Of a stretch of DNA of 64,000 bases, positions 32,656 to 62,022 are shown in pieces (the first letter of the stretch is position 1; every line of letters starts with the position of its first letter). Position numbers and translations under genes: made by a program. The notes beneath the pieces were generated by a model. The model was given only the letters and a program-made list of their open reading frames with translations. It did not search any database and was not told the DNA's origin. The DNA is from Gayadomonas joobiniege G7 (GTDB lineage: Bacteria; Pseudomonadota; Gammaproteobacteria; Enterobacterales; Alteromonadaceae), in assembly GCF_000300815.1 (NCBI RefSeq), contig NZ_AMRX01000008.1, positions 62,001-126,000 of the forward strand. Reading direction: 5' to 3'.

Positions 32656-32893
32656 AAAATATATTCAATTTTAATTAGTCACTTAACCTGCCTAGAAACG
32701 ACGCCCCCATTTGCCCTTACTGCTTTGTTTTGCCTGTTCAGAGTTAAGATCAATAATGAGCTTGTAAAATATCTTTTGGTTTTGTTTCTTAAATGTTGTC
32801 AATCAGGATTTATTGATGTAAGTTTTATGTGTGTTGTTAACAGTTTCATGTTTATTTTAAGTGGACAATCGGCTCATCATTAAAGAGGACGTT

Positions 32894-35659: not shown

Positions 35660-35665
35660 CTAACC

Positions 35666-35694
35666 TAAGCGCTTAACCTTTTGTTAAGCGCTTA
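35666..35694 (+). terminator. Intra-operon hairpin between receptor and halogenase genes
   Basis: 12-bp perfect stem TAAGCGCTTAAC / GTTAAGCGCTTA with loop CTTTT. It is followed by CTTTGAT, not a true T-tract. It probably lowers read-through or protects the receptor mRNA, giving more receptor than halogenase. It also shows that the halogenase cannot start at the TTG within the right arm. Confidence 0.6.
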
Positions 35695-35710
35695 CTTTGA
35701 TAGGCCGCTC

Positions 35711-37264
35711 ATGAATAAAGTTATCCGCTCTGTTGTTATTCTTGGTGGGGGCACCGCGGGCTGGTTAACAGCCGGAATTTTAGCGGCTAAACTCAAGCAG
35801 GAAAAAAAGTCAGGTTATAAAATTACCTTAATAGAGTCGCCCGATATAAAAACAGTTGGTGTGGGCGAAGGTACTTGGCCAACCATGCGTAAAACCTTAG
35901 CCAGCATGGGAATTAACGAAAGTGATTTTATTCAAGAGTGCCAAGTGTCTTTTAAACAAGGTGCCAAGTTCTCCCGCTGGGTCACTGGTTTAGACGATGA
36001 TCATTATTATCATCCATTGATGTTACCGCAAGGGAATGAGCAATTTGCCATTGCAAAACATTGGTTAGCTGGTGACCGTAACCTGAGTTTTGCTCATGCG
36101 GTTTGCCCGCAAGCAAAAGCCTGTGATCTAAACTTAGCGCCAAAGCGCATTGTTGATGCTGAATATCGTGGGCCGCTAAATTATGCATACCATTTAGATG
36201 CCGGTGCTTTTGTTTCTTTTTTAAAAAAACATTGCTGTCAAAATTTACAGGTAAACTATGTGTCGGCTACTGTGACCTCAGTACAGTCTGACGTAGAGGG
36301 TGATATAACCGGTTTGATGACAGATACTCAAGGGCTTGTCAGCGGCGATCTATTTATTGATTGCAGTGGCTTTAATAGCCGCCTGTTAGCTCAACATTAT
36401 CAAATCCCTTTTGTTAGCCAAGCTGATGTATTATTTGCCGATACTGCATTGGCTGTGCATGTGCCCTACGCAGATGCAAATACTGGCATAGCATCAATGA
36501 CATTATCTACGGCCCAGTCAGCGGGGTGGATTTGGGATATAGGTTTACCATCACGGCGCGGCGTTGGACATGTGTTTTCTTCAAATTATATTAGTCAGCA
36601 AGTGGCTGAGGATGAGCTGGCGCAATATATAAAAAATTCAGGTGGTCAATTAAAGGACGCACAATTTAAAAAGATAGCGATAAACTGTGGGCATCGACAA
36701 ACGTTTTGGCACAAAAACTCTGTGGCTATTGGTTTGGCTGCTGGCTTTTTTGAGCCGTTAGAAGCTTCGGCGCTGTTATTAATAGAAATATCTGCACAAT
36801 CTATTGCACAAAATTTTCCAACCAATAGAGCCGCAATGTCGCTGGTGGCTAAGCAGTATAACCGTATGAGTCACTATCGTTGGGCGCGCATTTTAGATTT
36901 TTTAAAATTACATTATTTATTAAATCAGCGCCAAGACAGTCAATTTTGGATTGATAATAGGGCGGCTGAATCCATCCCAGAAAGCCTGCAAGAAAAACTG
37001 GCGCTTTGGCAATACCAAGTGCCATCAGACGATGATTTTGAACAAGCCGTTGAAGTGTTTCCTGCGGCTAGTTATTTATACATACTCTATGGTATGGGCT
37101 TCAATACCCAGCCAGATCCGCTTGGCATTTCATCGGGCGGTCAAAGATTAGCCGAACATTATTTTAGCAAAAATCAGCAGCAATTTGAGCATTTGGCCAA
37201 AAGCTTGACTCAACATAAAACACTGCTTGATAAAATCCAACAATATGGCCTACAAAAAATATAG
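35711..37264 (+). CDS. Tryptophan-halogenase-family flavoprotein
   Basis: 517 aa FAD-dependent halogenase fold. The dinucleotide-binding loop GGGTAGW lies near the N-terminus (about 12-18) and the conserved lysine is in GAKFSRW (Lys86). The family WxWxIP motif reads WIWDIG (273-278), with Gly replacing Pro. Members next to TonB receptors are common in polysaccharide loci and have no shown indole halogenation; recent members halogenate other substrates. It is the second gene of the receptor operon. Its actual substrate is unknown; a modification of receptor or ligand is possible. Start at ATG 35711 follows the hairpin. Confidence 0.88.
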   Translation: MNKVIRSVVILGGGTAGWLTAGILAAKLKQEKKSGYKITLIESPDIKTVGVGEGTWPTMRKTLASMGINESDFIQECQVSFKQGAKFSRWVTGLDDDHYYHPLMLPQGNEQFAIAKHWLAGDRNLSFAHAVCPQAKACDLNLAPKRIVDAEYRGPLNYAYHLDAGAFVSFLKKHCCQNLQVNYVSATVTSVQSDVEGDITGLMTDTQGLVSGDLFIDCSGFNSRLLAQHYQIPFVSQADVLFADTALAVHVPYADANTGIASMTLSTAQSAGWIWDIGLPSRRGVGHVFSSNYISQQVAEDELAQYIKNSGGQLKDAQFKKIAINCGHRQTFWHKNSVAIGLAAGFFEPLEASALLLIEISAQSIAQNFPTNRAAMSLVAKQYNRMSHYRWARILDFLKLHYLLNQRQDSQFWIDNRAAESIPESLQEKLALWQYQVPSDDDFEQAVEVFPAASYLYILYGMGFNTQPDPLGISSGGQRLAEHYFSKNQQQFEHLAKSLTQHKTLLDKIQQYGLQKI

Positions 37265-46264: not shown

Positions 46265-47185
46265 TTATCGGTCAGTCGTAAGTCGTAGTGCAGCCGCAGT
46301 CGGCTGCCTGAATATTTGTATTTGATAAGACAAAGACCAACTTTCTCCTTGTTTAAAATACTGATCACCAGCAAATAAAAAAGCGGGGCTTATAAAAGGC
46401 ATATATTGGGAAACATACCAGGCTTCAGTCTGTTTTGTCACTGAGCTTTGGTTATTTGATATTTGTACCCCGCCATTATCACCACCATAATAAAGCCAGG
46501 GTAAATTTTTGCCGTGGATCTGTTTGGCTAAGGTATTTTGCTGATAGCTGAACTGCCAGTATTTTTTCAGTTCAGGTGAAAAGCGCCATGATAAACCCGC
46601 ATAACCGCCATACGAACGTCCATTCTTTTCACCAAGGATTGGGGTTCGTGATAAATGTACAGCTTCTAGTGCGGTAAAATCTGCCATCCAATCGATATCT
46701 AAAGAGCCATCTTTTTTAGGGGCTGATACACTGATTATGCGCTTTTCGCTGATCATAGAGTGCTTATGAATTTGGTACAGAAGTATGAGTTTAATTATTG
46801 CTGAGCCATCGTCATTTAGTGTTAAATCAATATCGCTTAGTAGCGTAGTGCCGTCTGAAACACCTGTCTGTTTGTCCTCTTCCCAAAAATTTGTCCCATT
46901 AATAAATTTAAAAGAAAACCATAAACCTTTATGCCAAGGATGTTCATCAGAATCCGGTTGATGGCGGGTAATTAAAGTTCTATCGGCTAAATAGATTGGA
47001 TGAAAAAAGGGCTTGTCGAACTTATTTTTATAGTTAAACCGCCAAATAACGGCTTTATTGTTATCCAACAGAGTTAATGAACCTGTTTGTTGCCGCCAAC
47101 TGATCGCGTGTGCCGATAGACTGAATAAATGCAGTAATAAAAAAAACAAAAGCGTTAATACGCTATTAAAAAACCTATTTTGCAT
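46265..47185 (-). CDS. DUF6807 (PmoA-like) secreted protein
   Basis: 306 aa exported protein with a signal peptide (about 1-26, ...SAHA). The beta-rich domain contains PIYLADRTLITRHQPDSDEHPWHKGLWFSFKFINGTNFWEE, typical of the PmoA/DUF6807 family, and TRTPILGEKNGRSYGGYAGLSWRF-like blocks. Function unknown; in many bacteria the family sits beside ThuA and sugar-oxidoreductase genes. Start at MQNRFFNS is preferred, giving a proper signal and an 11-base overlap with the ThuA gene end, so the pair is coupled. Confidence 0.82.
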   Translation of the reverse strand: MQNRFFNSVLTLLFFLLLHLFSLSAHAISWRQQTGSLTLLDNNKAVIWRFNYKNKFDKPFFHPIYLADRTLITRHQPDSDEHPWHKGLWFSFKFINGTNFWEEDKQTGVSDGTTLLSDIDLTLNDDGSAIIKLILLYQIHKHSMISEKRIISVSAPKKDGSLDIDWMADFTALEAVHLSRTPILGEKNGRSYGGYAGLSWRFSPELKKYWQFSYQQNTLAKQIHGKNLPWLYYGGDNGGVQISNNQSSVTKQTEAWYVSQYMPFISPAFLFAGDQYFKQGESWSLSYQIQIFRQPTAAALRLTTDR

Positions 47186-47957
47186 GGTTAAGGGCTCCGG
47201 TGACAAAAAGTAAACCATCTAATAAATGAGTTTGCATCATTTTATTAAAATAAGTATCGCCATGATGACCAAGCGATGTATAAAAGGACCGACCACCATC
47301 GTAATGGTGAAACCATGCAATGGGATGATGTTCGCCATGAATTTTTTTGCCCTGATAACTGGTTTCATCAACGGTTAAAATGTCGATGCGTTCGGGGTTT
47401 AGATTAATAAAGTTGTACCACTCATCGGTAAACATAAATGAAGCAGGTAAACGGTTGATAAAATAATCTGTCGTGTTTATTTTATTCAGTCGTGCAGATT
47501 GGATTTTGGGGTGGCTGATAAAAGTGCCGCCAACAAGTTTAACAAACCATGGCCAATCAAGTTCACACCAAGCGCTTGCATGTACACCCATAAAACCACC
47601 ACCTGATTGGATATATTTTTTAAACGCTTGGCGTTGTGTAGGATTAAATAGTGGGCCTGTTGTATTAATGAATACAATGGCATCGAAGTTTGTTAGTTTA
47701 TCCGTGGTAAACTCAGCCGAGTTTTCGGTTTTATGTACGCTAAACTGATATTGTTTACCTAACGCTTCAAACGACTCAATAGCCTCTTTGATGGATGCAT
47801 GCCTTACTTTAGTCGTTTTACTAAATAAAAGAAGATTTTTACCTGCTAATAATGTTGAGAGATCATTTTTTGCATTAGCATGGAATGTATGAATTAAACC
47901 GAATAATAAAACAAAAGCCGATATTATATTGCGTAGCTTTGTTAGAATAACTGCCAT
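47175..47957 (-). CDS. ThuA-family trehalose-utilisation-like protein, secreted
   Basis: 260 aa protein with a signal peptide (about 1-29). The class-I-amidotransferase-like ThuA fold (about 35-250) shows VFINTTGPLFNPTQRQAFKKYIQSGGGFMGVHASA, HPIAWFHHYDGGRSFYTSLGHHGDTY. ThuA proteins occur in pathways for 3-keto or otherwise modified disaccharides. It is divergent from the AraC regulator, with an 18-bp interrupted palindrome overlapping its ribosome site region, and is coupled to DUF6807. Confidence 0.88.
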   Translation of the reverse strand: MAVILTKLRNIISAFVLLFGLIHTFHANAKNDLSTLLAGKNLLLFSKTTKVRHASIKEAIESFEALGKQYQFSVHKTENSAEFTTDKLTNFDAIVFINTTGPLFNPTQRQAFKKYIQSGGGFMGVHASAWCELDWPWFVKLVGGTFISHPKIQSARLNKINTTDYFINRLPASFMFTDEWYNFINLNPERIDILTVDETSYQGKKIHGEHHPIAWFHHYDGGRSFYTSLGHHGDTYFNKMMQTHLLDGLLFVTGALNHAK

Positions 47958-47964
47958 TTTAATT

Positions 47965-47982
47965 ACCTTGTTGCAACATGGT
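47965..47982. promoter_or_regulatory. Interrupted palindrome ACCtTGTTGCAACAtGGT before the ThuA gene
   Basis: 18-bp dyad: arms ACC-TGTTG and CAACA-GGT symmetrical around a central G/C step, with only the two positions in lower case unpaired. It lies 8 bp upstream of the ThuA start and 85 bp upstream of the AraC start, so a bound protein would block ThuA translation-initiation-region transcription. It is probably a repressor-type site. Confidence 0.55.
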
Positions 47983-48066
47983 TACATATTTCAATTATTT
48001 TAAGTTAAAAATAGATCAACATTCGTTTAAAATATACTGGTCATTATTCAATGGTAAATATTTAAC

Positions 48067-49089
48067 ATGAAAGACATTGTTAAAGTAGCTCGCTATTTCA
48101 GCCAAGATGGGGTCCTGCATGCAGATAACTGCGATCTACTGGAGAAAGCTGCACGAGAAAAAAAGCTAACGATGAGTGCTATTTCACGTCGCGCGTATCC
48201 AGGCCAGCGATTAGCTGATTATGCAATGCCGGGGCTTTTGTCATTTGGCGTTTGGGATTGCCGAAAATTGCAAGACTGGCATCTTACCCCTCACAGAAAC
48301 GAAGGGGTTGAAATCACCTACTTGGCAAAAGGAAGTTTAAATTTTACCGTTGATGAGCAAAGTTATGTATTGACCAAGGGCGCTGTTAGTGTCACACGAC
48401 CATGGCAAAAGCACAGTTTAGGTGCGCCAAAGCTTGGGTATTCTAAATTATTTTGGTTAATTATTGATTTAAACGTGCAAAAACCAGATGACCAATGGCG
48501 ATGGCCGGCTTGGGTTGTGTTAGACGTCAATGAAATGGCCAGTTTAACCAATTATCTTCAACATACAGAACAACATGTTTGGATGGCTAACCAAAAGGTT
48601 CAGTCAATATTCAAAAAGCTTAATGCGCTGCTTATTAAACAAATTGAACAGAGTCAGAGTTATTATTCTTTAATTACACTCTGTATTAATGAATTATTAC
48701 TCTCTTTGCTCGATTTATTTAGAAGCCAAACGACCATCCTTAATAATCATCTGTCGTCAAAAACATATACAGTTGAACGTTTTTTGCAGGCTCTACCGGA
48801 AGTGTGTGAGCAAGCATGGGATCTAACACAAATGGCGAATGAATGTGGCTTAAAACGAAGCCAATTTAGCGAATATTGTTATCAATTGAAAGGCATGTCA
48901 CCAAATGATTATCTGACCACATGCCGTATTGATAAAGCAAAGCGTTTGTTAATGAATAGCGCTTTAAATATCACCCAAGTTGCATTTAGTGCCGGTTTTA
49001 GCAGTAGCCAATATTTTGCTACTGTGTTTAAAAAGAAAGTGGGCATGACGCCTATTTTGTTTAAAAATTACCAGTTAATAGAGCGGTAA
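48067..49089 (+). CDS. AraC-family transcriptional regulator
   Basis: 340 aa regulator with a cupin-type sensor domain (about 55-170: EGVEITYLAKGSLNFTVDEQSYVLTKGAVSVTRPWQKHSLG) and a C-terminal double helix-turn-helix (about 240-335: MANECGLKRSQFSEYCYQLKG, NITQVAFSAGFSSSQYFATVFKKKVGMTP). It lies between divergent ThuA genes and co-oriented cytochrome/sulfatase genes, so it probably activates the second catabolic locus in response to a sugar. Confidence 0.9.
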   Translation: MKDIVKVARYFSQDGVLHADNCDLLEKAAREKKLTMSAISRRAYPGQRLADYAMPGLLSFGVWDCRKLQDWHLTPHRNEGVEITYLAKGSLNFTVDEQSYVLTKGAVSVTRPWQKHSLGAPKLGYSKLFWLIIDLNVQKPDDQWRWPAWVVLDVNEMASLTNYLQHTEQHVWMANQKVQSIFKKLNALLIKQIEQSQSYYSLITLCINELLLSLLDLFRSQTTILNNHLSSKTYTVERFLQALPEVCEQAWDLTQMANECGLKRSQFSEYCYQLKGMSPNDYLTTCRIDKAKRLLMNSALNITQVAFSAGFSSSQYFATVFKKKVGMTPILFKNYQLIER

Positions 49090-49152
49090 ATACTAGACGC
49101 TTAGTTCGCTTAGTTTGTTTATCATTTAACAAAAAACAAACAGAGAGCGTTT

Positions 49153-51798
49153 ATGAAACAAGCAACTTTTGCGATTTGGCCATTATTATGTATGTTCAGT
49201 GTTTTACCTTTTATGTCATCTGCCGAGACGAACAAACCAAACGAACGGGTAAACATAGTAGCGCAAGGTAAAACACTGTTTGTTGATAAAGGCTGTGTTG
49301 AATGCCATGCAAATAAAAAAGGCGATACATCTTACAAAACCGGCCCTAATTTGTGGGGGCTCTTTCAAAAAACGCCTAAAATGCACTCTATTTATCTATC
49401 AAATGGGCGTTTAGCTCGGGTGGAAGCAGATCAAGAGTATTTAAAAAATTCGTTATTAATTCCGGCAACTCAGCTAGCCATACAGGAATTGGGCCCCGAA
49501 AGAGGGAGTCCATATTTAGCAGTCATGCCTAAGATCTTTTTAAATGGCCATGAGCGCAACGCTTTGTTTGCTTATTTAAAAACTTTGAATGAAAAAAGAT
49601 ATCGTGGGCCGCAGGAAGTTTGGCGTAGTATTTCTAACACCAATACCAAACAAAAACAGCGTTATGATAACGAGTTGTGGGCGGGGAAAGATGCAACTTT
49701 TTCTCGCCATCATATAGCAGACGTTTCAACGCGCAGTATTCATATTGCTTTGCCAAATAAAACCAATTATAGCTTTGACAGTAAAGACTTCTCGGTTAAA
49801 AGAATTTGGTCAGGCGGTTTTTTAGATATCACACCGGAGCGCACGAATAGAGGTCGTGGTTTAAACGAGCTGCCCAGTACGGCCAAAGAGTGGAAAGACC
49901 TTGTGCACTTATTACCCTTAACAAGCGACGGTAAACCTGTTGATTTAGGGTTTAAGAATTGGCCCACGTTTAAAACTGAAGGTTTGCTTGAGCAGTACCG
50001 GATAAAAAATGAAAACTCTAACTTTGCGCAACCTTATTTGGATCAAGTTAATGCAGCCAAAGGTCAATTTTTAGGCATCGACCATCAAAACAAAAAAGCA
50101 CCTATTCTAATGTATAAAATTGAAGGTGTGACCTATCGCCAGGCCGTAACACTGTCATTAGATGGACACATTCAATTTGCTTTTGCATTAGACAATAGCC
50201 AAAAACCGGTGCGTTTTAAGCTTGACAACATTAAAGAAAGGTTAATCGAAGTTTCGCATGGCACCGTTAATGAAGATATATGGACGGTCCCAGTTGAACA
50301 ACAAACCGCGTTTTCGATCCGTTTTAAACTAGATGCGCCCCAACTTTCCGAAAATGCCGCGAATAACCTACATGAAGTGACCCATGATAAACAACCGGTA
50401 AAAATGGTGCAGGATGACGAAGCTAAACTGCCAGCTGGCTATCAGGCGTTTAATATAATGGCGCCATTGGATAAGTTCGGGCGTGAGCAGCTATTTGAAC
50501 CTTTAGCAATAGATTTTGCGGTGAATGGTGATGCTGTGATTGCCTCTCGTACATCAGGAATATGGAAAATCAAGGACAAATATTGGCATTTTTTTGCGGA
50601 CGGCTTTTATGATCCGCTCGGGGTTTATATTGAAGATGAGGCGGGTGATCAAATGGTGATTGCGCATAAACCTGAATTGACTCGATTGACTGATGTAGAC
50701 GGTGACGGGTACGCAGATACTCATTATACAATTAATGACGATTGGCGTTACGCTGGCAATTATTGTGAGTACGTTCATGGGCCTGTACCTGATGGTCAAG
50801 GCGGTTACTTTTTGAACTTAAATTTGGCTCATGGCGGCGATAAGGTGCATGGTGGGCCTATGGGAACCTTCGGTGGGTATGATGGCTGGCTGGTGAAAAT
50901 TGATAAAAACGGCGTATTTACCCCATGGGCAAGCGGGCTTAGAAGCCCAGCTGGTTTAGGTTATGGCTCAAACAAACAACTTTTATATACTGATAATCAA
51001 GGGGTTTTTGTTGGCACTTCAAAAATGCATCTGGTGAAAAAAGATGCTTATTATGGTTACCCCGCAAGTTTGAAAGATCATCCCGATCATAGAGGCAAAT
51101 CTATCAATTGGCAGCAAGTGAACAAAAAAGCAAGGCTAGCTGAAATCTATTTCCCGCATGGGATTGTGGGTAATTCACCGGGCAATCCAACATTTGACTC
51201 TACAAAAGGTGGGTTTGGACCTTTTGCTGGTCAGATCTTAGTTGGTGATCAGAGTCTTTCTAATATTTCGCGGGTGGTGTTAGAAGAAGTGAATCACCAG
51301 TGGCAAGGGGTTGTGATCCCTTTTATCAGTGGATTACAGTCGGGCGCTATGCGATTAACTTTTGCGCCCGATAATAGTTTGTGGGTTGGTCAAACAGGAC
51401 GTGGCTGGAGCGCACGTGGTGGTCATTATCAAGCACTGCAAAAAATTGTTTGGGATGGCAAAACCCAGCCATTTGAAATTAAAAATGTGCAGCTCACTCT
51501 ATCTGGATTTAAATTAACTTTTAGTGATAGTTTACAATCTAACAAGATAGCGCAAGCAGATATCAGCGTAAAATCTTGGCGCTATTTAGATACCAATGTT
51601 TATGGATCCCCTAGGTATGATTTAGAGACACACCAGGTAACCGATTTATCGCAAGCAGACAAAAGTATAAAATTTAATATAAAAAATATGCGAGCGGGCT
51701 TTATTTATGAAATCAAACTCGCGGACATTAGAGCGAGCGCAGGCACGGAACTGGGGCATAACAGTGCCTATTATACTTTACATCAACTAAAACCATAA
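49153..51798 (+). CDS. Cytochrome c - sorbosone-dehydrogenase-like fusion protein
   Basis: 881 aa exported redox protein. After the signal (1-24) there is a class I cytochrome c domain (about 33-150) with heme site CVECH (Cys48, Cys51, His52) and a possible Met ligand in AVMPKIF. A middle region (about 180-430; DUF6797-like, from memory) includes SGGFLDITPERTNRGRG. The C-terminal part (about 440-800) is a glucose/sorbosone-dehydrogenase-like propeller (DKFGREQLFEPLAIDFAVNGDAVIASR, GLRSPAGLGYGSNKQLLYTDNQG, IYFPHGIVGNSPGNP), ending in a small sandwich. It could oxidise a sugar in the periplasm and pass electrons to its own heme. It lies downstream of the AraC gene and upstream of a sulfatase. 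Confidence 0.82.
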   Translation: MKQATFAIWPLLCMFSVLPFMSSAETNKPNERVNIVAQGKTLFVDKGCVECHANKKGDTSYKTGPNLWGLFQKTPKMHSIYLSNGRLARVEADQEYLKNSLLIPATQLAIQELGPERGSPYLAVMPKIFLNGHERNALFAYLKTLNEKRYRGPQEVWRSISNTNTKQKQRYDNELWAGKDATFSRHHIADVSTRSIHIALPNKTNYSFDSKDFSVKRIWSGGFLDITPERTNRGRGLNELPSTAKEWKDLVHLLPLTSDGKPVDLGFKNWPTFKTEGLLEQYRIKNENSNFAQPYLDQVNAAKGQFLGIDHQNKKAPILMYKIEGVTYRQAVTLSLDGHIQFAFALDNSQKPVRFKLDNIKERLIEVSHGTVNEDIWTVPVEQQTAFSIRFKLDAPQLSENAANNLHEVTHDKQPVKMVQDDEAKLPAGYQAFNIMAPLDKFGREQLFEPLAIDFAVNGDAVIASRTSGIWKIKDKYWHFFADGFYDPLGVYIEDEAGDQMVIAHKPELTRLTDVDGDGYADTHYTINDDWRYAGNYCEYVHGPVPDGQGGYFLNLNLAHGGDKVHGGPMGTFGGYDGWLVKIDKNGVFTPWASGLRSPAGLGYGSNKQLLYTDNQGVFVGTSKMHLVKKDAYYGYPASLKDHPDHRGKSINWQQVNKKARLAEIYFPHGIVGNSPGNPTFDSTKGGFGPFAGQILVGDQSLSNISRVVLEEVNHQWQGVVIPFISGLQSGAMRLTFAPDNSLWVGQTGRGWSARGGHYQALQKIVWDGKTQPFEIKNVQLTLSGFKLTFSDSLQSNKIAQADISVKSWRYLDTNVYGSPRYDLETHQVTDLSQADKSIKFNIKNMRAGFIYEIKLADIRASAGTELGHNSAYYTLHQLKP

Positions 51799-51946
51799 CG
51801 GCTCAAGCCTCGAGCCTAATTGTTATATCGATTTTGACGCAGCAAATTAGTAAACCTATAGGCATCAGCCACTTCAGAGTTTTTGTTCCGGTTTTAAGTT
51901 TGCGAACGGTTTAATCATTAAAATTTTATTTTTTTGGAGCTTTTTG

Positions 51947-53560
51947 ATGCTTAACCTCAACCCTGCTGCGTTCATTTTAAAGTCTTTGTTTAATGGCTTG
52001 CTCGCTGGCAACGCAAAACCAGTTACGTTTAAATTGGGTTTTATTTTTGGGCTAGTTTTATTTTTAAATTTTTTTCGCAGTGCAGAAGTGTTGGCTGCGA
52101 GTCATAAAAAGCTTGAGTCACCTAATGTTATTTATATCATCGTTGATGATATGGGCATAGGTGACATTAGCCCATATGGTCAAGAGAAAATACGGACACC
52201 TAATTTGCAAAAAATGGCAGACGAAGGATTAACTTTCACTCAACATTATGCAGGAAGTACCGTATGTGCGCCGTCGCGTGCCTCTGTGATCACTGGTTTG
52301 CATTCAGGACATAGTCAAATTAGAGGCAATTTTGAATTAGGTGGTTTCACTGACGATAAAGAATACGGCCAAATGCCGTTGGATCCGGGCACGCCAACAA
52401 TCGCAACGGTAATGAAAGAAGCTGGCTACAAAACAGCCCTAATAGGTAAATGGGGATTAGGAGGTCCTGGTTCACATGGTGAACCCACTAAACATGGTTT
52501 TGATTACTTTTTTGGTTATTTAGATCAAAAACAAGCCCACAACCACTTCCCAACACACCTTTGGCGAAACACCAATCAATTTCCGTTAGGGAATGCTTGG
52601 TTAGATCCACATCAGACTTTGCCCGGGCACGTTGATAAAAATGATCCAGCCAGTTATAGGGTGTATCAACGAGATGATTTTGCCCAAGAAAGGCTGACAC
52701 AAGATGCTTTAAATTATATCAAAACACATAAAGATGGGCGCTTTTTTATGTACCTAGCTTATGCAGGGCCGCACGCTGCTTTGCAAGCACCACAAGATCT
52801 CATTAACGAGTACAATTTTGATGAAACCCCTTATACAGGTGAAACTCATGGTAACTATGTTCCTCAGCTAAAACCAAGAGCGGCAAGAGCAGCCATGATC
52901 ACCCATATAGATCAAGGTGTCGGTCGTTTGCTCGACTTGTTAAAAGACCTAAATATAGATAAAGATACTTTGATTATTTTTACCAGCGATAATGGGCCTA
53001 GTTTTGAGGGGGGCGCTGACTTAGACTTTTTTAACAGCAATGCTAAGTATCGAGGGTATAAACGGGACTTGTACGAAGGGGGCATTCGAATGCCTACCAT
53101 TGCGCGTTGGCCGGGCAAAGTTGCCGCTGGTGTAAAAACCGATCACCTTTCTGCGTTTTGGGATTTAATGCCAACACTTGCCGAGCTAACTGGTGTCAGC
53201 GCGCCGAAAAACACGGATGGGATTTCTTTTTTGCCCACCTTGTTAGGTTCCAAAAAAATGCAAGCTCAACACACAAGTTTATACTGGGAATTTCATCAGG
53301 GTAAACGACGCCACATTCAAGCCGTTCGCATTAATGATGATAGAAAAGCTGCATGGAAAGCGCTGCGTACATTTGATAAAAACCATCGTTTGGATCCGCC
53401 AGTAGAATTATATGATTTAAAAACGGATCCCGGTGAACAAAATAATTTGGCATCAGAATACCCAGAGGTTGTTGCCCAAGCGAAACAACTAATGCAATCG
53501 TCGAGAACGCGATCGACTTTTGAGTACTGGAATTTTGATTATTTACAGCCAGCAAACTAA
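51947..53560 (+). CDS. Secreted sulfatase, S1 family
   Basis: 537 aa sulfatase with an unusually long N-terminal leader (hydrophobic FIFGLVLFLNFF at about 31-43; mature start after VLAAS). Formylglycine motif CAPSR (Cys107) in AGSTVCAPSRASVITG. Other blocks: VDDMGIGDISPYGQ, GKWGLGGPGSHGEP, AYAGPHAALQAP and FTSDNGPSFEGG. The GKWGLGG form differs from GKWHLG in the other four, placing it in another S1 subfamily. ATG at 51947, with GGAG 8 bases before it, chosen over the overlapping TTG. It lies in the second catabolic locus with the ThuA and cytochrome genes. Confidence 0.92.
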   Translation: MLNLNPAAFILKSLFNGLLAGNAKPVTFKLGFIFGLVLFLNFFRSAEVLAASHKKLESPNVIYIIVDDMGIGDISPYGQEKIRTPNLQKMADEGLTFTQHYAGSTVCAPSRASVITGLHSGHSQIRGNFELGGFTDDKEYGQMPLDPGTPTIATVMKEAGYKTALIGKWGLGGPGSHGEPTKHGFDYFFGYLDQKQAHNHFPTHLWRNTNQFPLGNAWLDPHQTLPGHVDKNDPASYRVYQRDDFAQERLTQDALNYIKTHKDGRFFMYLAYAGPHAALQAPQDLINEYNFDETPYTGETHGNYVPQLKPRAARAAMITHIDQGVGRLLDLLKDLNIDKDTLIIFTSDNGPSFEGGADLDFFNSNAKYRGYKRDLYEGGIRMPTIARWPGKVAAGVKTDHLSAFWDLMPTLAELTGVSAPKNTDGISFLPTLLGSKKMQAQHTSLYWEFHQGKRRHIQAVRINDDRKAAWKALRTFDKNHRLDPPVELYDLKTDPGEQNNLASEYPEVVAQAKQLMQSSRTRSTFEYWNFDYLQPAN

Positions 53561-56192: not shown

Positions 56193-57029
56193 TTAAAGGC
56201 CGCCGGATTTTCGATATTGGCCCGGCGCTAATCCCACCGATTTTTTAAAGCGTTTTGCAAAATTAAACACATCCGAATACCCTACTTGTTCGGCTATTTG
56301 TTGGATGCTCCACTGGCTGTTAGTTAACAGATACTTGGCGCGCTGCATCCTGAGCTTAATCAAATATTGAATTGGGCTAAGTTGGAAATGCCTTTTAAAT
56401 AGTTTATGCAGGTGTGGACTTGAATAATGAATAGTTTGTGCCATTGTCTCTACTGTCCAATCGTAGTGCAGTGATTTTTCAATATCACGCCTTAATTGTT
56501 TAAGTTTGGCTATTTCTTCTGATATGGGTGTCGCGTTAAAGGTTTGGTTTAAATAATGAGCCAATAACTTAATACTCGGCGCTCTAAGTTCAGCTGAGCT
56601 TTCATAATATAAATGGCCTAACAAGTGAAAAATTTGTTTTCCGTTTGCACAACTATGTATACCTGGGGCCAAATTGTGAAAAGATTGCCAATTAGCGGTA
56701 TCGTCTAATGCAAACCAAGCCATTTCCCAGTAATCAGCCTGCAACTCTAATAAAAATGATTGACCCGCTGGTATCACTATAATTTGTCCTTTGCGAGCGA
56801 TGAGTGTTTGTTGATTCATAGTGACAGATATCTCACCGTCGTTGCAGTAAAATAAACTATGTGTATACGGACTAATACGGCCGACTTTATAGTGCCCTCT
56901 AAGATGCGATATCCCAGATAGGTGAATGTTTAAACTTTCTAATTCTGGTACTTTTTCGCAATCGACAAAGCGTTCTTTACACGCTTCACCGATCTCTAAA
57001 ATATCCCCAATATTGTTTGCTAGAACCAT
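56193..57029 (-). CDS. AraC-family transcriptional regulator
   Basis: 278 aa: cupin-type N-terminal domain (about 40-110: SLFYCNDGEISVTMNQQTLIARKGQIIVIPAGQSFLLE) and AraC-type double helix-turn-helix (about 178-276: WTVETMAQTIHYSSPHLHKLFKRHFQLSP, WSIQQIAEQVGYSDVFNFAKRFKKSVGLAPGQYR). It is divergent from SemiSWEET (gap 139 bp) and near a DUF5060 glycosidase, so it is a plausible sugar-responsive activator of these genes. Confidence 0.9.
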   Translation of the reverse strand: MVLANNIGDILEIGEACKERFVDCEKVPELESLNIHLSGISHLRGHYKVGRISPYTHSLFYCNDGEISVTMNQQTLIARKGQIIVIPAGQSFLLELQADYWEMAWFALDDTANWQSFHNLAPGIHSCANGKQIFHLLGHLYYESSAELRAPSIKLLAHYLNQTFNATPISEEIAKLKQLRRDIEKSLHYDWTVETMAQTIHYSSPHLHKLFKRHFQLSPIQYLIKLRMQRAKYLLTNSQWSIQQIAEQVGYSDVFNFAKRFKKSVGLAPGQYRKSGGL

Positions 57030-57168
57030 ATTTTAAGTCCTTATGATAGTTTTGAACATATTAAAGATAGTCTAAACCATACTGTAAAAAGTGCCAGTTT
57101 GAGAGAATATACTCATGGCTTAGCAATAAAGCTAACGCCACTTGTTTATTTAAGTGAGGAAGCAAACC

Positions 57169-57474
57169 ATGTCTAACATTGAGCTTTTAGGCTTTGTATC
57201 TGCGTTTTTAACAACTATTTCATTTTTGCCACAAGCGATACAAGTGATTAAAACACGCAATACCGAGTCCTTATCACTGGCGATGTATAGCCTGTTCACT
57301 TTCGGTGTGGCTGCTTGGACAGTTTATGGCTTCATGATAGGTAACATTGCGGTGATAGCTGCGAACATTATTACCTTCGTTCTTGCTGCTATTATTTTAA
57401 CTATCAAAATAATCAATGAGTTGAATAAACGTCAAGTTGTCGATGAAACATTAACTGGGAAAGTACAAGGATAA
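57169..57474 (+). CDS. SemiSWEET sugar transporter
   Basis: 101 aa membrane protein with three hydrophobic helices and a PQ-loop: SFLPQAIQVIKTRNTESLSLAMYSLFTFG. SemiSWEETs are dimeric facilitators of mono- and disaccharides. The ATG at 57169 is chosen because the GTG at 57154 is part of the ribosome site GTGAGGA. It is divergent from an AraC gene and upstream of (convergent with) a glycosidase gene. Confidence 0.88.
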   Translation: MSNIELLGFVSAFLTTISFLPQAIQVIKTRNTESLSLAMYSLFTFGVAAWTVYGFMIGNIAVIAANIITFVLAAIILTIKIINELNKRQVVDETLTGKVQG

Positions 57475-57491
57475 TTAGACTTTTAGTTGAT

Positions 57492-57513
57492 CACCGCTGG
57501 AAAACCAGCGGTG
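57492..57513. terminator. Hairpin between SemiSWEET and DUF5060 glycosidase genes
   Basis: 9-bp perfect stem CACCGCTGG / CCAGCGGTG with a GAAA-type tetraloop (AAAA), lying between convergent genes. T-tract weak (GGATCTTA). Both gene ends lie within 20 bp of it. Confidence 0.65.
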
Positions 57514-57525
57514 GATCTTACGATC

Positions 57526-59385
57526 TTATTGTTCAGCTTCTTTAACAAAGATCACCCAGTCTTTATGCTGATCTTTTGGTGGTTTACCTAAATCGTAAAA
57601 GTCAGGCTGCCAATACCCTTCATCTTGCGTATCCGCTTGAAAAGATTTTATGCTACCGGTTTGCAACTCACCACCTTCACGTGGGTTGTACCAATGGATG
57701 TTATATTGTCCTTTAAAGCCACGCATTTTTATTTTTAATTCTTTTTTTGCACTTTTTGCAAACATAATATAAAACTCGCCATCTTTTGCTAAAGCCCAAC
57801 CATGATTCAGTGCTTCGTCTTGATTGACAGCATTTTGATAATCTACATCGATAAGTTTAAAAAAATCTAACGCATATTTGGCTTGGGTCCAGAAATTATC
57901 CCGGCTTCTAAAATCTTCAGCTGTTAAGTCTGAATGAGGTCGTTTATATCCAAAATACCATTCTGTCCCCCAGGCGCCAGCTGTTAATGCACCCCAGAGA
58001 CCATTGGTTCGAGCGTCGTTATGTAAAGGATCAAACTCATCGGGCTGTAATGCATATTCGGCATCACCAGGCTCATCAACTGCCACTGCCAATGGCCGTT
58101 CATTGACTACTGGCCAGCTCCGTAATCGTTTAACTTGGTCGTGCACACTGCCAAAATCTTTGCGCCCTGTTTGCAAAGAAACGCCAGTATAATAACTGTC
58201 GTTGCCAGTAATATCTTCAAAAAAGTTACCATTGTGGATGACAACATGATGCTTATACGGGTCATTTAAATAAAAGTATTTTGCCATCGCCAAACGTTGC
58301 TGGGTGTTTTGAGGCGGCGTTTGATGGTTTGCATACCATTCTCCGTTTTCTTCACCCATGTTCCAGTTCAGAGCCAAATGATGAGAAAACCTAGCAATTA
58401 ATTCACGATAATAAACTTGCCGCTGCAGGCCCAATCCCCCATTATCTAATAAGCCCTGGTTTTCTACTTCTTGAGTTTTAAAATGTAAAAACAAACCTTT
58501 ATGTTGAGCGTGGCTGAATATGATATTCCACTGCGCGAGTTTTGATACATCGTACCTATCATAAGTCTCATAATTGATAAATGGGTATACGTTTTGATCG
58601 TCGCCTTTAATATTCAAAGTTAAAAAAGAGATTGAATTCATGCCTTTTTGACTTAAATAATTGATCGCACCGATAAGGCCTTTCCCCTTACCATTTTGCC
58701 AGCTTGGATCACCTGGTTGCCAATCTTTAATATGTGGTTGCCAAGTTTTTACTAAATGATCTTTATGACCATCATTATGAAAGTCTCCATCAAAATCTTT
58801 ATATGAAAGCAGATTCTCAGGGGCATCTGGGCCCGCTTTAATAAAATAACCGCCCTGCTCTGAAAATTTTAGGTACGGTTCCCCAACATATTTAAGGCGG
58901 CCACGCTGACGAAAGTCTGGATACGGTTTATCTGAAACTTGCACCGTAAATTTGCCTCGTTGGCCATCTAATGGCTGAACGATTTTACCCGTTAATACAT
59001 TATCAGAGATTGCAACATACGGGCCTGTTCGAAAGCTAATTCGCCAAGACCAGACACCTATTTCATCTGGGCTGAATCTAACGCGCCATTTATTGCCATC
59101 AGTTGCACCTGTTTGTGCGGCGTTACCGTCCGCTGCAAAAAATCCGGGCACTTGATAGCTTTTACCTGTTTTTTTATGGATGAAAGTTGCGTTAAGACGG
59201 TAGTCTGTAAAAGGATTGATTTTACCTGTTTCGGATGCGTGAGGCCCCTCAAAGGTCAAGTTAATGGTATGCCATTTTTTAAGCTCTCCAGTTATTTGGG
59301 GTTGTGCAAGCAAAGGCGCACAAAAAAAATTAAGCACACATAGATAAAACGCAGCATATCGTTGATAAACAGTAAATATTAACAT
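57526..59385 (-). CDS. Secreted DUF5060 glycoside hydrolase (clan GH-A, apiosidase-like)
   Basis: 619 aa. Signal (1-28, ending LLAQ-P), DUF5060 beta-sandwich (about 33-125: WHTINLTFEGPHASETGKINPFTDYRLNATF, GFFAADGNAAQTGATDGNKWRVRFSPDEIGVWSW), a (beta/alpha)8 barrel (about 160-530) and a C-terminal collagen-binding-like sandwich (about 540-615). Candidate catalytic residues are Glu in LNWNMGEENGEW and Asp/Glu in VAVDEPGDAEY. The DUF5060 plus barrel architecture is shared with GH140-like and other marine glycosidases. Not an assigned family by my reading. A pair of GTTAAC palindromes lies upstream of its start. Confidence 0.78.
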   Translation of the reverse strand: MLIFTVYQRYAAFYLCVLNFFCAPLLAQPQITGELKKWHTINLTFEGPHASETGKINPFTDYRLNATFIHKKTGKSYQVPGFFAADGNAAQTGATDGNKWRVRFSPDEIGVWSWRISFRTGPYVAISDNVLTGKIVQPLDGQRGKFTVQVSDKPYPDFRQRGRLKYVGEPYLKFSEQGGYFIKAGPDAPENLLSYKDFDGDFHNDGHKDHLVKTWQPHIKDWQPGDPSWQNGKGKGLIGAINYLSQKGMNSISFLTLNIKGDDQNVYPFINYETYDRYDVSKLAQWNIIFSHAQHKGLFLHFKTQEVENQGLLDNGGLGLQRQVYYRELIARFSHHLALNWNMGEENGEWYANHQTPPQNTQQRLAMAKYFYLNDPYKHHVVIHNGNFFEDITGNDSYYTGVSLQTGRKDFGSVHDQVKRLRSWPVVNERPLAVAVDEPGDAEYALQPDEFDPLHNDARTNGLWGALTAGAWGTEWYFGYKRPHSDLTAEDFRSRDNFWTQAKYALDFFKLIDVDYQNAVNQDEALNHGWALAKDGEFYIMFAKSAKKELKIKMRGFKGQYNIHWYNPREGGELQTGSIKSFQADTQDEGYWQPDFYDLGKPPKDQHKDWVIFVKEAEQ

Positions 59386-59400
59386 AAGACTCCTTTAAAT

Positions 59401-59427
59401 GTTAACGATAGACTTTAATTGGTTAAC
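59401..59427. promoter_or_regulatory. Two GTTAAC palindromes upstream of the DUF5060 gene
   Basis: TGTTAACGA (core GTTAAC 59401-59406) and GGTTAACAT (core 59422-59427), 21 bp apart centre to centre, two helical turns, and 16 to 42 bp upstream of the start. The core is the same as in the ATTGTTAACAAT sites of the galactan locus, which would suggest a shared or related regulator. Confidence 0.4.
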
Positions 59428-59537
59428 ATACTATAAGAGGTCAGGAAGATTATCTAGCTCAAACTTCTGTAAAAAATAAAATGGGCAGCTTACGAAGTCG
59501 TGTTGAATTGCGAGTAACTTTTTAAAAAATGAATAAA

Positions 59538-59563
59538 ATAGAGCGGCTCAGCGGCCGCTCTAT
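59538..59563 (-). terminator. Terminator of the ZnuD-like receptor gene
   Basis: 10-bp perfect stem ATAGAGCGGC / GCCGCTCTAT with a 6-base loop. On the minus strand it continues into TTTTATTCATTTTTT, 30 bp past the receptor stop. Confidence 0.85.
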
Positions 59564-59592
59564 CGGATTATTATGATGTTGAACGATAAAAT

Positions 59593-62022
59593 TTAAAAAT
59601 AGCCACGTATACCAAAATGCAGAGTTCTTCCGGCTATTGGCGCTTCATCTTTAATAAATGAGGTGTGGTTTTTAGCATAAACATCACCAAGATTATGTGC
59701 TTTTAGATACACAGATATATCCTGCTGAGCGATATTGAGGTTATAACTAACATTTGCGTCAATTAGGTTATAGCCGTTAGTTTGGCTTTCATATTGTGCA
59801 ACTTTGTCCTGACTGTCATAGCGCGTAAAGCTGAGTTTACTTGTGAAAGCTTGCCAGTTGTAATTAATTTCACCGCCAAAGCGCAGTGGCGGTGTGCGAG
59901 GTAGATCACCCCCCTCAATTAATTTTGCTCTGACATAATCGGCAAACACTCTTGTTTTCAAATGTTCCGTAGCCTGCCAAACAAATTGTGCTTCAAAACC
60001 GTACAGTTTTGCATCTGCATGGTTAAATACAAACACCGGAAGCTCATCTGAATGTTCATGTTCTTCGTCATGATCAGTATCATGTTCATCAGCATCTTCA
60101 TGCATTTCGTCTTCATGCTCATGTGAAAATTCAGCAAATAGGCCGGTTTCTGCTTGGTAGTAGTAGTTATGAACTCGATTATAAAAAACATTTACAACAA
60201 ACCCAAAATCACCTTCATATTTTCTGAGCGTCAGATCAATGTTATTAGAAAGTTCCAATGGTTGGTCCGCAGATAACACATCTATATGATATTCGTTTTC
60301 AGCTTCTTCGTGAATTTCATATAGTGCGCCAATTTCGTAAGTTTGTGCCCCAATGTGTGGGCCAAAAGAGAGAATTTCTGCTGCAGACGGAGCACGTTCG
60401 GCGTGTGATACTGCTATTCCTAAGTTATAGCCCGGCACAAAATCCCAAACTACGCCCCCAGATAAATTTACGGTCGCAAAACTTTGATCAATGGCATCTA
60501 CTTCAATGTCTTCGGTTGGGTGCTCGTTTTCATGGTCGTCACCGTGTTCATCACCATGTTCATCCTCGTCATGGTGATCTTCGTCGTCACTATGATCTTC
60601 GTGGCTGTGTACATCAAACATCTCAATCTGTGAAGATTTCGATTTCAGAGTGATGTACTCAGTGCGTGCGCCAAGCTGCACTAAAAAGTTACCAAAATGT
60701 TGTTCTTGCATCATTGCAATTGCGAAAGTTTCATTGTCTGAGGCCGGCGCAAATGCTTCGTCTCCAATGGCAGAAAACTCTGATTTTTTATAATGCAAGC
60801 TAATACCACCACGCCAACCAGCGATTTCTTGCTGCATAAAATCGAATTTTGCTTCGCTAGTCTGGTTGCTAAATAAGGTGCCAACTTCGCCATTTTCGAT
60901 TTCAGCATGTTCGTAATCAGTGTACGATAAACGTGAGTGCAATGCTTTTAATGCGCCACTGTCAATATCTACTTCGCTTTGCAGTTGCACTCTGTCCTGA
61001 GTTAAATCTGCATAAACCGATTCACCTTCTTCGCCGTGCCCAGGGATACCATATTCGCGTTCTAACCGACCATAAGAAATTCCAGCATAGCCTTTGTCCG
61101 CGATATAACTGACACCCAAAGTGCCGCCCGTACTATCTTCAAAGCTATTATCGACTAGTTGCCTTATGCGATTTTTTTGTTTGCCTGCTTCATAATTTTC
61201 AGACTCGCGCCAGAAACCATCTAAATGAAATGCGAACTGCTCGCTACCTGTATTTAAGCTGGCAGACGCAAGTTTCTGCTGATCGTTGGTGCCTTTTTGC
61301 AATGTCCACTCACCAAAGGTGTCTGAGCTTTTAGGAATGCGTTCATCTACGACATTAACCACTCCACCAATCGCGCCGCTGCCGTAAAATAACGTCGCTG
61401 GGCCTCTAAGTACTTCAATTTGTTGCGCAGTAGTGGCTTCTGTGGTGACTGAGTGATCGGGACCAATACGACTAACGTCGCCAGCATCTAGGCCGTTCTG
61501 GCTGATTAATACACGGGGCCCGCTTAAACCTCGAATAACTGGGGTACTTGCAACACCGCCGTACGAGCTAGAATGAACGCCGATTTCTGATTTTAAACTT
61601 TCACCTAAAGTACTGGCTTGCTGCTCACGCAAGCGGTCACCGGATAATACACTCACAGGCATCGCTGATTCTATAGTTGACGAGTGAAACGGTGTAGCCG
61701 TCACATCTATCACTTCAATTGGCGACGAGACTAGCGTTATAGTTAATGTTTGATTATTTTTTTGATTAAAATCTATCGCTTGGTTTTTATGCGCGTAACC
61801 ACTGGCAGAAATATGTAGTTCTGGATTTGATTTGTTAGTATTTATTTTAAAACGACCATTCTCATCAGCAATGACTTTTTTATTAGACCCCATTACTGAT
61901 ATTTTTGCTTTGGCAATACTTTTACCATTTGCATTAAGAACCTGGCCGTTAATTGTCTGGGCTTGAGTGGCAGTTGTTAACAGTGCACTGCACACGAGTG
62001 CTACTTTGCTTAATTTGTACAT
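59593..62022 (-). CDS. znuD: TonB-dependent receptor, His-rich, ZnuD-like zinc receptor
   Basis: 809 aa outer-membrane receptor. Signal 1-21; a carboxypeptidase-regulatory-like beta-sandwich (about 22-105: INGQVLNANGKSIAKAKISVMG); plug (about 115-225: IESAMPVSVLSGDRLREQQASTLGESLKSEIGVHSSSYGG...GPRVLISQNG); then the barrel ending in HFGIRGYF. Two acidic His-rich loops lie in the barrel (about 467-507 and 632-662, rich in HEDH/DEHGDEHGDDHENEH), typical of zinc-importing ZnuD receptors. The extra N-terminal domain is common in Bacteroidetes and some gammaproteobacteria. A Zur-like site lies 37-53 bp upstream. The gene symbol reflects similarity, not tested function. Confidence 0.85.
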   Translation of the reverse strand: MYKLSKVALVCSALLTTATQAQTINGQVLNANGKSIAKAKISVMGSNKKVIADENGRFKINTNKSNPELHISASGYAHKNQAIDFNQKNNQTLTITLVSSPIEVIDVTATPFHSSTIESAMPVSVLSGDRLREQQASTLGESLKSEIGVHSSSYGGVASTPVIRGLSGPRVLISQNGLDAGDVSRIGPDHSVTTEATTAQQIEVLRGPATLFYGSGAIGGVVNVVDERIPKSSDTFGEWTLQKGTNDQQKLASASLNTGSEQFAFHLDGFWRESENYEAGKQKNRIRQLVDNSFEDSTGGTLGVSYIADKGYAGISYGRLEREYGIPGHGEEGESVYADLTQDRVQLQSEVDIDSGALKALHSRLSYTDYEHAEIENGEVGTLFSNQTSEAKFDFMQQEIAGWRGGISLHYKKSEFSAIGDEAFAPASDNETFAIAMMQEQHFGNFLVQLGARTEYITLKSKSSQIEMFDVHSHEDHSDDEDHHDEDEHGDEHGDDHENEHPTEDIEVDAIDQSFATVNLSGGVVWDFVPGYNLGIAVSHAERAPSAAEILSFGPHIGAQTYEIGALYEIHEEAENEYHIDVLSADQPLELSNNIDLTLRKYEGDFGFVVNVFYNRVHNYYYQAETGLFAEFSHEHEDEMHEDADEHDTDHDEEHEHSDELPVFVFNHADAKLYGFEAQFVWQATEHLKTRVFADYVRAKLIEGGDLPRTPPLRFGGEINYNWQAFTSKLSFTRYDSQDKVAQYESQTNGYNLIDANVSYNLNIAQQDISVYLKAHNLGDVYAKNHTSFIKDEAPIAGRTLHFGIRGYF

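Follow-up and report, generated by a model that had tools for sequence, protein, structure and literature searches.

A DUF6807-ThuA-AraC cassette with a secreted cytochrome c-propeller fusion in Gayadomonas joobiniege and its possible role in periplasmic oxo-sugar processing

LacA-type enzymes are GMC flavoproteins. The nearest studied system to the one described here, LacABC of Caulobacter crescentus, is reported to carry out a periplasmic oxidation of lactose, and hydrolysis of the resulting 3'-ketolactose has been proposed for a DUF1080 (PF06439) protein (PMC9007349). The nearest architecture is that of the AA12 enzyme CcPDH from Coprinopsis cinerea, in which an N-terminal cytochrome is described as being joined to a pyrroloquinoline quinone (PQQ) propeller and as receiving electrons at its heme (PMC4332668). 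Analysis of a stretch of 64,000 nucleotides (positions 62001-126000 of contig NZ_AMRX01000008.1; henceforth the window) from the 3.91 Mb genome of Gayadomonas joobiniege G7 showed that genes for a DUF6807 protein, a ThuA-domain protein, an AraC-family regulator and a secreted cytochrome c-propeller fusion constitute one linked unit. We lean, by a little over an even chance, toward the view that this cassette specifies a cytochrome-c-linked periplasmic glycoside dehydrogenase, whose oxo-sugar product would be handled by DUF6807 and ThuA. No description of the four-gene cassette was found in the literature searched, a search that had most subscription papers and preprints outside its reach.

The cassette would resemble LacABC in oxidizing a glycoside in the periplasm and in deploying a secreted protein on the oxo-sugar, and relatives of its propeller enzyme adjoin PF06439 genes; it differs in possessing a cytochrome-propeller fusion along with DUF6807 and ThuA, and in having no PF06439 gene. 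With CcPDH the fusion shares an N-terminal cytochrome and the propeller fold of a PQQ enzyme (fold match 6jt5). However, CcPDH is described as having heme b, PQQ and a CBM1 module, whereas the bacterial fusion has heme c and a DUF6797-like middle region, does not retain the PQQ/Ca2+ motif, and is accompanied by DUF6807 and ThuA. Soluble PQQ glucose/aldose dehydrogenases (PF07995) share the predicted propeller fold and a distant profile similarity, but the fusion scores below the Pfam cut-off for this family and its GHRN and GDEVN motifs are altered.

Open reading frames and Pfam matches recovered all five genes of the locus at the positions given in the original prediction, which had also claimed coupling of ThuA and DUF6807 beside a divergent AraC gene. 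Indeed, the DUF6807 gene (46265-47218, minus strand; PF14100, 117 bits against a cut-off of 27, E 1.5e-33), the actual start of which is probably 47188, overlaps the ThuA-domain gene (47175-47957, minus strand; PF06283, 208.5 bits against 33.4, E 1.7e-61), and the gene for the AraC-family regulator, with cupin and HTH_18 domains in Pfam, lies on the opposite strand (48067-49089, plus strand), divergent from both. Downstream of it by 63 bases is the fourth core member, a secreted protein of 881 residues (49153-51798, plus strand) that combines a cytochrome c domain, a DUF6797-like middle region and a GSDH/DUF7133-like propeller, the matches to DUF6797, GSDH and DUF7133 all falling below the respective Pfam cut-offs. 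The cytochrome domain (residues 36-145; 49258-49587, plus strand; PF00034, 28.2 bits against 21.3) bears the heme motif C48-V-E-C-H52 at 49294-49308 and so shows both the CxxCH and the Pfam match of a class I cytochrome c; judging from the sequence, Met125 is its probable axial heme ligand. The propeller (residues 426-881; 50428-51795, plus strand) displays Cys538 and Tyr636 at positions where most relatives have histidine. The predicted cytochrome with CVECH, its fusion to a propeller and the sulfatase gene that comes next are thus all borne out by the open reading frames and Pfam. ThuA, DUF6807 and the fusion have signal-peptide-like N-termini, judged by eye from the translations.

All four core genes are clustered in the same arrangement on plasmid pCadTS8_1 of Catenovulum adriaticum, where DUF6807 is 73%, ThuA 81%, AraC 83-85% (85% over 333 residues) and the fusion 58% identical to the window proteins. 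This copy has a transposase gene on either side, that on one side being of IS3 type and accompanied by integrase pieces. The same four genes are found in an alteromonadacean genome of another genus (G429), with DUF6807 in reversed orientation and identities of 42% for DUF6807, 54% for ThuA (both assignments backed by Pfam), 53% for AraC and 52% for the fusion. The CxxCH of the cytochrome is retained in both genomes, and the G429 fusion has a lipobox-like N-terminus, again judged by eye from the translation. Alignment of the intergenic regions of these three loci points to 48023-48066, immediately before the AraC gene, as a possible operator or promoter: TCGTTTAAAATATACTG (48023-48039) is also present in C. 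adriaticum and in part in G429, while GGTAAATATT (48053-48062) is common to all three. Variant loci occur in a metagenome-assembled genome (MAG) of Akkermansiaceae (L019) and in the verrucomicrobial genome G749 (locus L206). In L019 an AraC gene (40% identical to that of the window over 326 residues) is divergent from genes for a TIM barrel, a DUF6807-cytochrome fusion, whose DUF6807 domain is 35% identical to the window protein, and a separate propeller. L206 has the same set; its AraC protein is 30% identical to that of the window over 319 residues, and its TIM barrel shares 62% identity with the one in L019. No ThuA gene was seen in either of these two loci, the TIM-barrel gene occupying the place that ThuA has in the other cassettes. 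Thus, the proposal that five families form one set holds for DUF6807, ThuA, AraC and the fusion, which recur together in other genomes beyond chance, and fails for the sulfatase (see below).

The cassette has probably moved between bacteria. At E limits of 0.001 and 1e-15, DUF6807 was detected in 2/295 genomes of the host order and 6/295 of the host family (its own genome counted in), as against 88 of 112 genomes sampled from one Verrucomicrobiota order. This rarity on the host side and abundance in the Verrucomicrobiota order fit horizontal transfer from Verrucomicrobiota, though the trees leave its direction unproven.

Relatives of the propeller enzyme were collected from genome contigs; a single-protein query recovered none, and an alignment query recovered 549. 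The best loci counted below are the best 80 of these, the most similar ones rather than a random sample, and approximately full flanks were available for only 35 of the 80. An AlphaFold model of the enzyme (72-row alignment; mean pLDDT 85.2, pTM 0.82) retrieved 2ism as its best Foldseek match (E 4.2e-13; TM by target 0.72), followed by 6jt5, 3a9g, 3das and 1c9u among others, which are PQQ sugar dehydrogenases and AA12 proteins, and the predicted fold is accordingly that of a GSDH propeller. Weaker matches included a putative gluconolactonase and a luciferin-regenerating enzyme. By sequence, the fusion scored 21.4 bits against the PF07995 GSDH model, under the gathering cut-off of 25, and a profile of the enzyme retrieved no PQQ enzyme among solved structures. 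Hence, its earlier designation as sorbosone-dehydrogenase-like stands by predicted fold and falls by sequence score. An hhalign comparison with three true GSDH proteins did yield a probability of 92.5 (E 4.9e-7), aligning GHRN with GLRS and GDEVN with VGTSK. GHRN and GDE(V/L)N are the PQQ/Ca2+-site motifs of GSDH, and the fusion does not possess them; Arg597 is retained in 86/87 propellers and Ser598 in 83/87.

These observations bear on whether the propeller could be a conventional PQQ sugar dehydrogenase of the GSDH/AA12 type that takes up environmental PQQ and feeds the fused cytochrome. We regard this as unlikely. The fold matches, the hhalign similarity to true GSDH and the retained Arg597 are all in its favor, but they are countered by the replaced motifs, by the failure of the sequence profile to retrieve any solved PQQ enzyme, and by pqqC being found in none of 27 carrier genomes (0/23 plus 0/4, with completeness given for 6 of the 27). 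The pqqC model itself was effective, scoring over its cut-off in 8/75 genomes of the class and recovering the gene again in the positive control G324; 14 named control genomes yielded none. Nonetheless, the absence of pqqC argues only weakly against PQQ and is compatible with a scavenged cofactor, since the difference between 0/23 carriers and 8/75 class genomes has a Fisher p of 0.11 and one genome (G272) encodes canonical GSDH genes yet no pqqC.

Among the 78 best loci with a match to the propeller profile, the cytochrome is fused to the propeller in 17, adjacent on the same strand in 45 and apart in 2, the fused and adjacent cases including Pseudomonadota, Verrucomicrobiota and Bacteroidota. 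Such frequent fusion or adjacency suggests electron transfer between the two. In one of the matched regions (L006 1-3388, contig C5 of G272) the cytochrome and propeller are encoded by two neighboring genes that share a reading frame, which explains why the match there runs through one TAG. Some propeller genes come from MAGs with species labels that seem doubtful, namely Klebsiella pneumoniae (L090) and Akkermansia muciniphila (L022, L023, L026 and L077).

A link to 3-keto-sugar enzymes emerged from the neighborhoods of these relatives. Of 229 genes in enzyme operons, 153 remained on keeping at most two per side, 150 were taken and 22 (the longest, TonB genes and one GH2) were dropped to leave 128; the comparison set began as 310 distant genes, from which 150 were picked randomly, and leaving out the last 20 and three others gave the 127 used. 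PF06439 was found in 10/128 operon neighbors as against at most 1/127 distant genes (Fisher p 0.005 taking 1), and ThuA in 6/128 as against at most 1/127, these bounds following from the absence of both from the 25 families listed for the distant set, a list that reached single members. An iterated profile built here further detected an N-terminally fused PF06439-like domain in 10/80 best loci, as well as in L010 and L011; by Pfam, nine of the ten lie over the cut-off (27-54 bits) and L020 scores 26.5 against 26.8, while L010 has 37 bits. Full and strong C-terminal PF06439 domains (98-125 bits) are present in three of the 80 (L062, L088 and L094). ThuA occurs within the locus or as a fusion in 9/80: one protein of 1223 residues (L093 2743-6414) unites the propeller with an AP_endonuc_2 TIM barrel and ThuA, and in L022 ThuA is fused not to the enzyme itself but to a DUF7133-cytochrome protein adjoining it. 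Across the order the propeller profile matches 5/295 genomes, and PF06439 scores over its cut-off in 5/5 of these versus 23/290 of the others. In the G. joobiniege genome itself, two PF06439 genes come directly after a paralogous pair of cytochrome and propeller genes (L109 7733-15794); separately, the genome has a LacA/LacC-like group, in which a 3-keto-disaccharide hydrolase gene lies with those for a GMC oxidoreductase and a gluconate 2-dehydrogenase subunit 3 (L112 9481-12537). L109 also includes a TonB receptor, past one intervening gene. Neither a GMC dehydrogenase nor PF06439 was detected among 20 window proteins scanned, all PF06439 matches of the genome being outside the window, and the second ThuA gene of the genome is located beside a PhoD-like gene and not beside the enzyme. 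The original association of ThuA with a 3-keto-sugar context is thereby supported, and these fusions and adjacencies to 3-keto-disaccharide hydrolases and ThuA make a periplasmic oxo-sugar route the best reading of the cassette.

Under this route the AraC protein would probably sense a sugar or a breakdown product and drive the two divergent transcripts. The secreted fusion, probably periplasmic, would oxidize a hydroxyl of a glycoside or sugar with its propeller, C3 being the best guess, and pass the electrons via its own cytochrome c to the respiratory chain. Cleavage or rearrangement of the oxo-sugar might next fall to the secreted DUF6807 and ThuA proteins, which would fill the position that PF06439 hydrolases have next to related enzymes.

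Several observations weigh against this scheme. The cassette itself has no PF06439 gene, and a distant relationship of DUF6807 to PF06439 is not supported (hhalign probability 1.1%). DUF6807 genes of Verrucomicrobiota (L146-L175) occur in varied contexts, with Gfo/Idh making up 4/62 neighbors. The operon enrichment of ThuA alone gives a Fisher p of 0.06; within the family PF06439 presence is 5/5 versus 12/19 (p 0.15), copy number alone differing (p 0.003), and related Cellvibrionaceae contribute many of the PF06439 rows. The N-terminally fused PF06439 domains have diverged, scoring 26-54 bits with one slightly under the cut-off; Pfam finds none in L011, and conserved residues are frequently lost, in a check of 16 fused rows that counts one stand-alone gene (L207) owing to its length. 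Going by these residues, such domains may bind rather than cut, which makes the case for DUF6807 as a catalytic replacement less strong. Finally, the propeller is without the GDE(V/L)N of PQQ enzymes and hence may not be the oxidizing center, and 14 of the 78 best loci with a propeller show no cytochrome of this type with the profile built here. Propeller folds are catalytically versatile, and the domain might alternatively be a lyase, a lactonase or a binding module, with the cytochrome serving another redox partner. The weaker fold matches to the putative gluconolactonase and luciferin-regenerating enzyme, the degraded PQQ site and the 14 loci just mentioned would agree with such a function, but the top fold matches are sugar dehydrogenases and fusion or same-strand adjacency to the cytochrome prevails in the best loci, so that we consider it very improbable.

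The exchanges at positions 538 and 636, which we infer from the GSDH alignment to lie in the active site, go with DUF6807 in the five cassette loci. Histidine occupies position 538 in 82/87 propellers and 636 in 83/87, and of these 87 only the window enzyme and that of L019 combine Cys538 with Tyr636; among loci L010-L096 and the window, DUF6807 was likewise found only in these two (profile built here; many flanks being short). The C. adriaticum and G429 enzymes, which were retrieved for similarity, contain the same pair. When the 112 genomes sampled from the Verrucomicrobiota order were searched with a profile of these four Cys/Tyr enzymes, a single standout emerged, G749, at 707 bits, with the next at 512; its enzyme has the Cys/Tyr pair, and the fusion of its DUF6807 to the cytochrome was then seen. 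In an enlarged set, most of the added loci of which were included without a DUF6807 check, His538 is present in 109/115, His636 in 102/115 and Asn636 in 8/115, and the pair in 3/115, C. adriaticum and G429 being outside the set; given the unchecked loci, a Fisher comparison of 5 against 112 is to be disregarded. All five DUF6807-linked enzymes thus carry Cys538 and Tyr636. A single clade for the five is not rejected (AU p 0.42), though the free tree separates them. The trees, which place L013, L014 and L108 in another branch, do not favor an origin of the window enzyme by recent duplication from the split paralogs in its own genome.

Since DUF6807 is fused to the cytochrome where relatives carry PF06439, and since two otherwise conserved histidines are exchanged for cysteine and tyrosine in its company, we tentatively suggest, as a possibility still more doubtful than probable, that it processes the oxo-glycoside made by a propeller dehydrogenase that is cytochrome-c-linked and independent of PQQ, the swap suggesting another oxidation chemistry or substrate. 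A phmmer search of solved structures with DUF6807 yielded nothing credible, and its predicted fold, based on two sequences with a pLDDT of 33.5, was discarded. The literature searched gives no function for it; one source mentions it, only as the highest DUF number (PMC10971088), and DUF6797 and DUF7133 have no mention in the literature searched.

The S1-type sulfatase gene (51944-53560, plus strand; 208.9 bits against a Pfam cut-off of 25) adjoins the cassette without being a conserved member of it. Its product has a CAPSR motif, matching the S1 sulfatase signature. Its best matches among solved structures are 7ana (E 6.3e-124) and 7an1 (E 3.2e-99), which are listed as BT1622 and BT1636 of subfamily S1_20, with 3S-Gal/GalNAc as substrate (PMC10154620). 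Enzymes of S1_20 are described as acting on 3-O-sulfated Gal/GalNAc (PMC10154620; PMC10154612). The signature and nearest relatives of the window sulfatase fit membership in S1_20, the subfamily being set by the nearest relatives alone, and a substrate like that of BT1622 and BT1636 is a prediction from this kinship. It is conceivable that the sulfatase is integral to the system, stripping a galactose 3-O-sulfate and so freeing the C3 hydroxyl for the dehydrogenase. Its relatives in S1_20 and its location on the same strand as the fusion, 145 bases away, would accord with this, as would the three sulfatases beside AraC in L206, the two that precede a paralogous cytochrome-propeller pair in the G. 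joobiniege genome, together with a GH2 gene (L014), and the presence of a sulfatase in 14/80 best loci (profile built here; without a background rate). However, among the five cassette loci that of the window is the only one with a directly adjoining sulfatase of this type: the nearest in C. adriaticum is about 10 kb from the cassette, none was found within 19 kb of that in G429 with the profile built here, those of L206 are just 28-31% identical to it, and the L019 contig stops about 600 bases past the propeller, leaving that flank outside view. Moreover, sulfatases are not enriched near operons of the relatives (3/128 operon neighbors versus 4/127 distant genes by Pfam), and a palindrome directly 3' of the fusion (51800-51816), terminator-like on both strands though on weak consensus evidence only, separates it from the sulfatase. 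We therefore reject the sulfatase as a fixed cassette member on its co-occurrence, contrary to the original inclusion of it in the unit, and hold its integral role to be quite unlikely.

Elsewhere in the window, 32861-37264 encodes a TonB-dependent receptor and, after it, a protein resembling tryptophan halogenases. The region 56193-62022, where a DUF5060/Collagen_bind_2 protein is encoded together with an AraC regulator and with a TonB receptor that contains a CarboxypepD-like domain, is likely to be another glycan locus.

DUF6807 is present in the majority of the genomes sampled from one Verrucomicrobiota order, and the four-gene cassette, having a single dehydrogenase and a single regulator, offers a compact setting for approaching its role. 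If the cytochrome-c-linked dehydrogenase reading is true, the cassette would represent a second, non-flavin type of enzyme for the oxidative use of glycans in the periplasm, of possible importance to the breakdown of algal polysaccharides.

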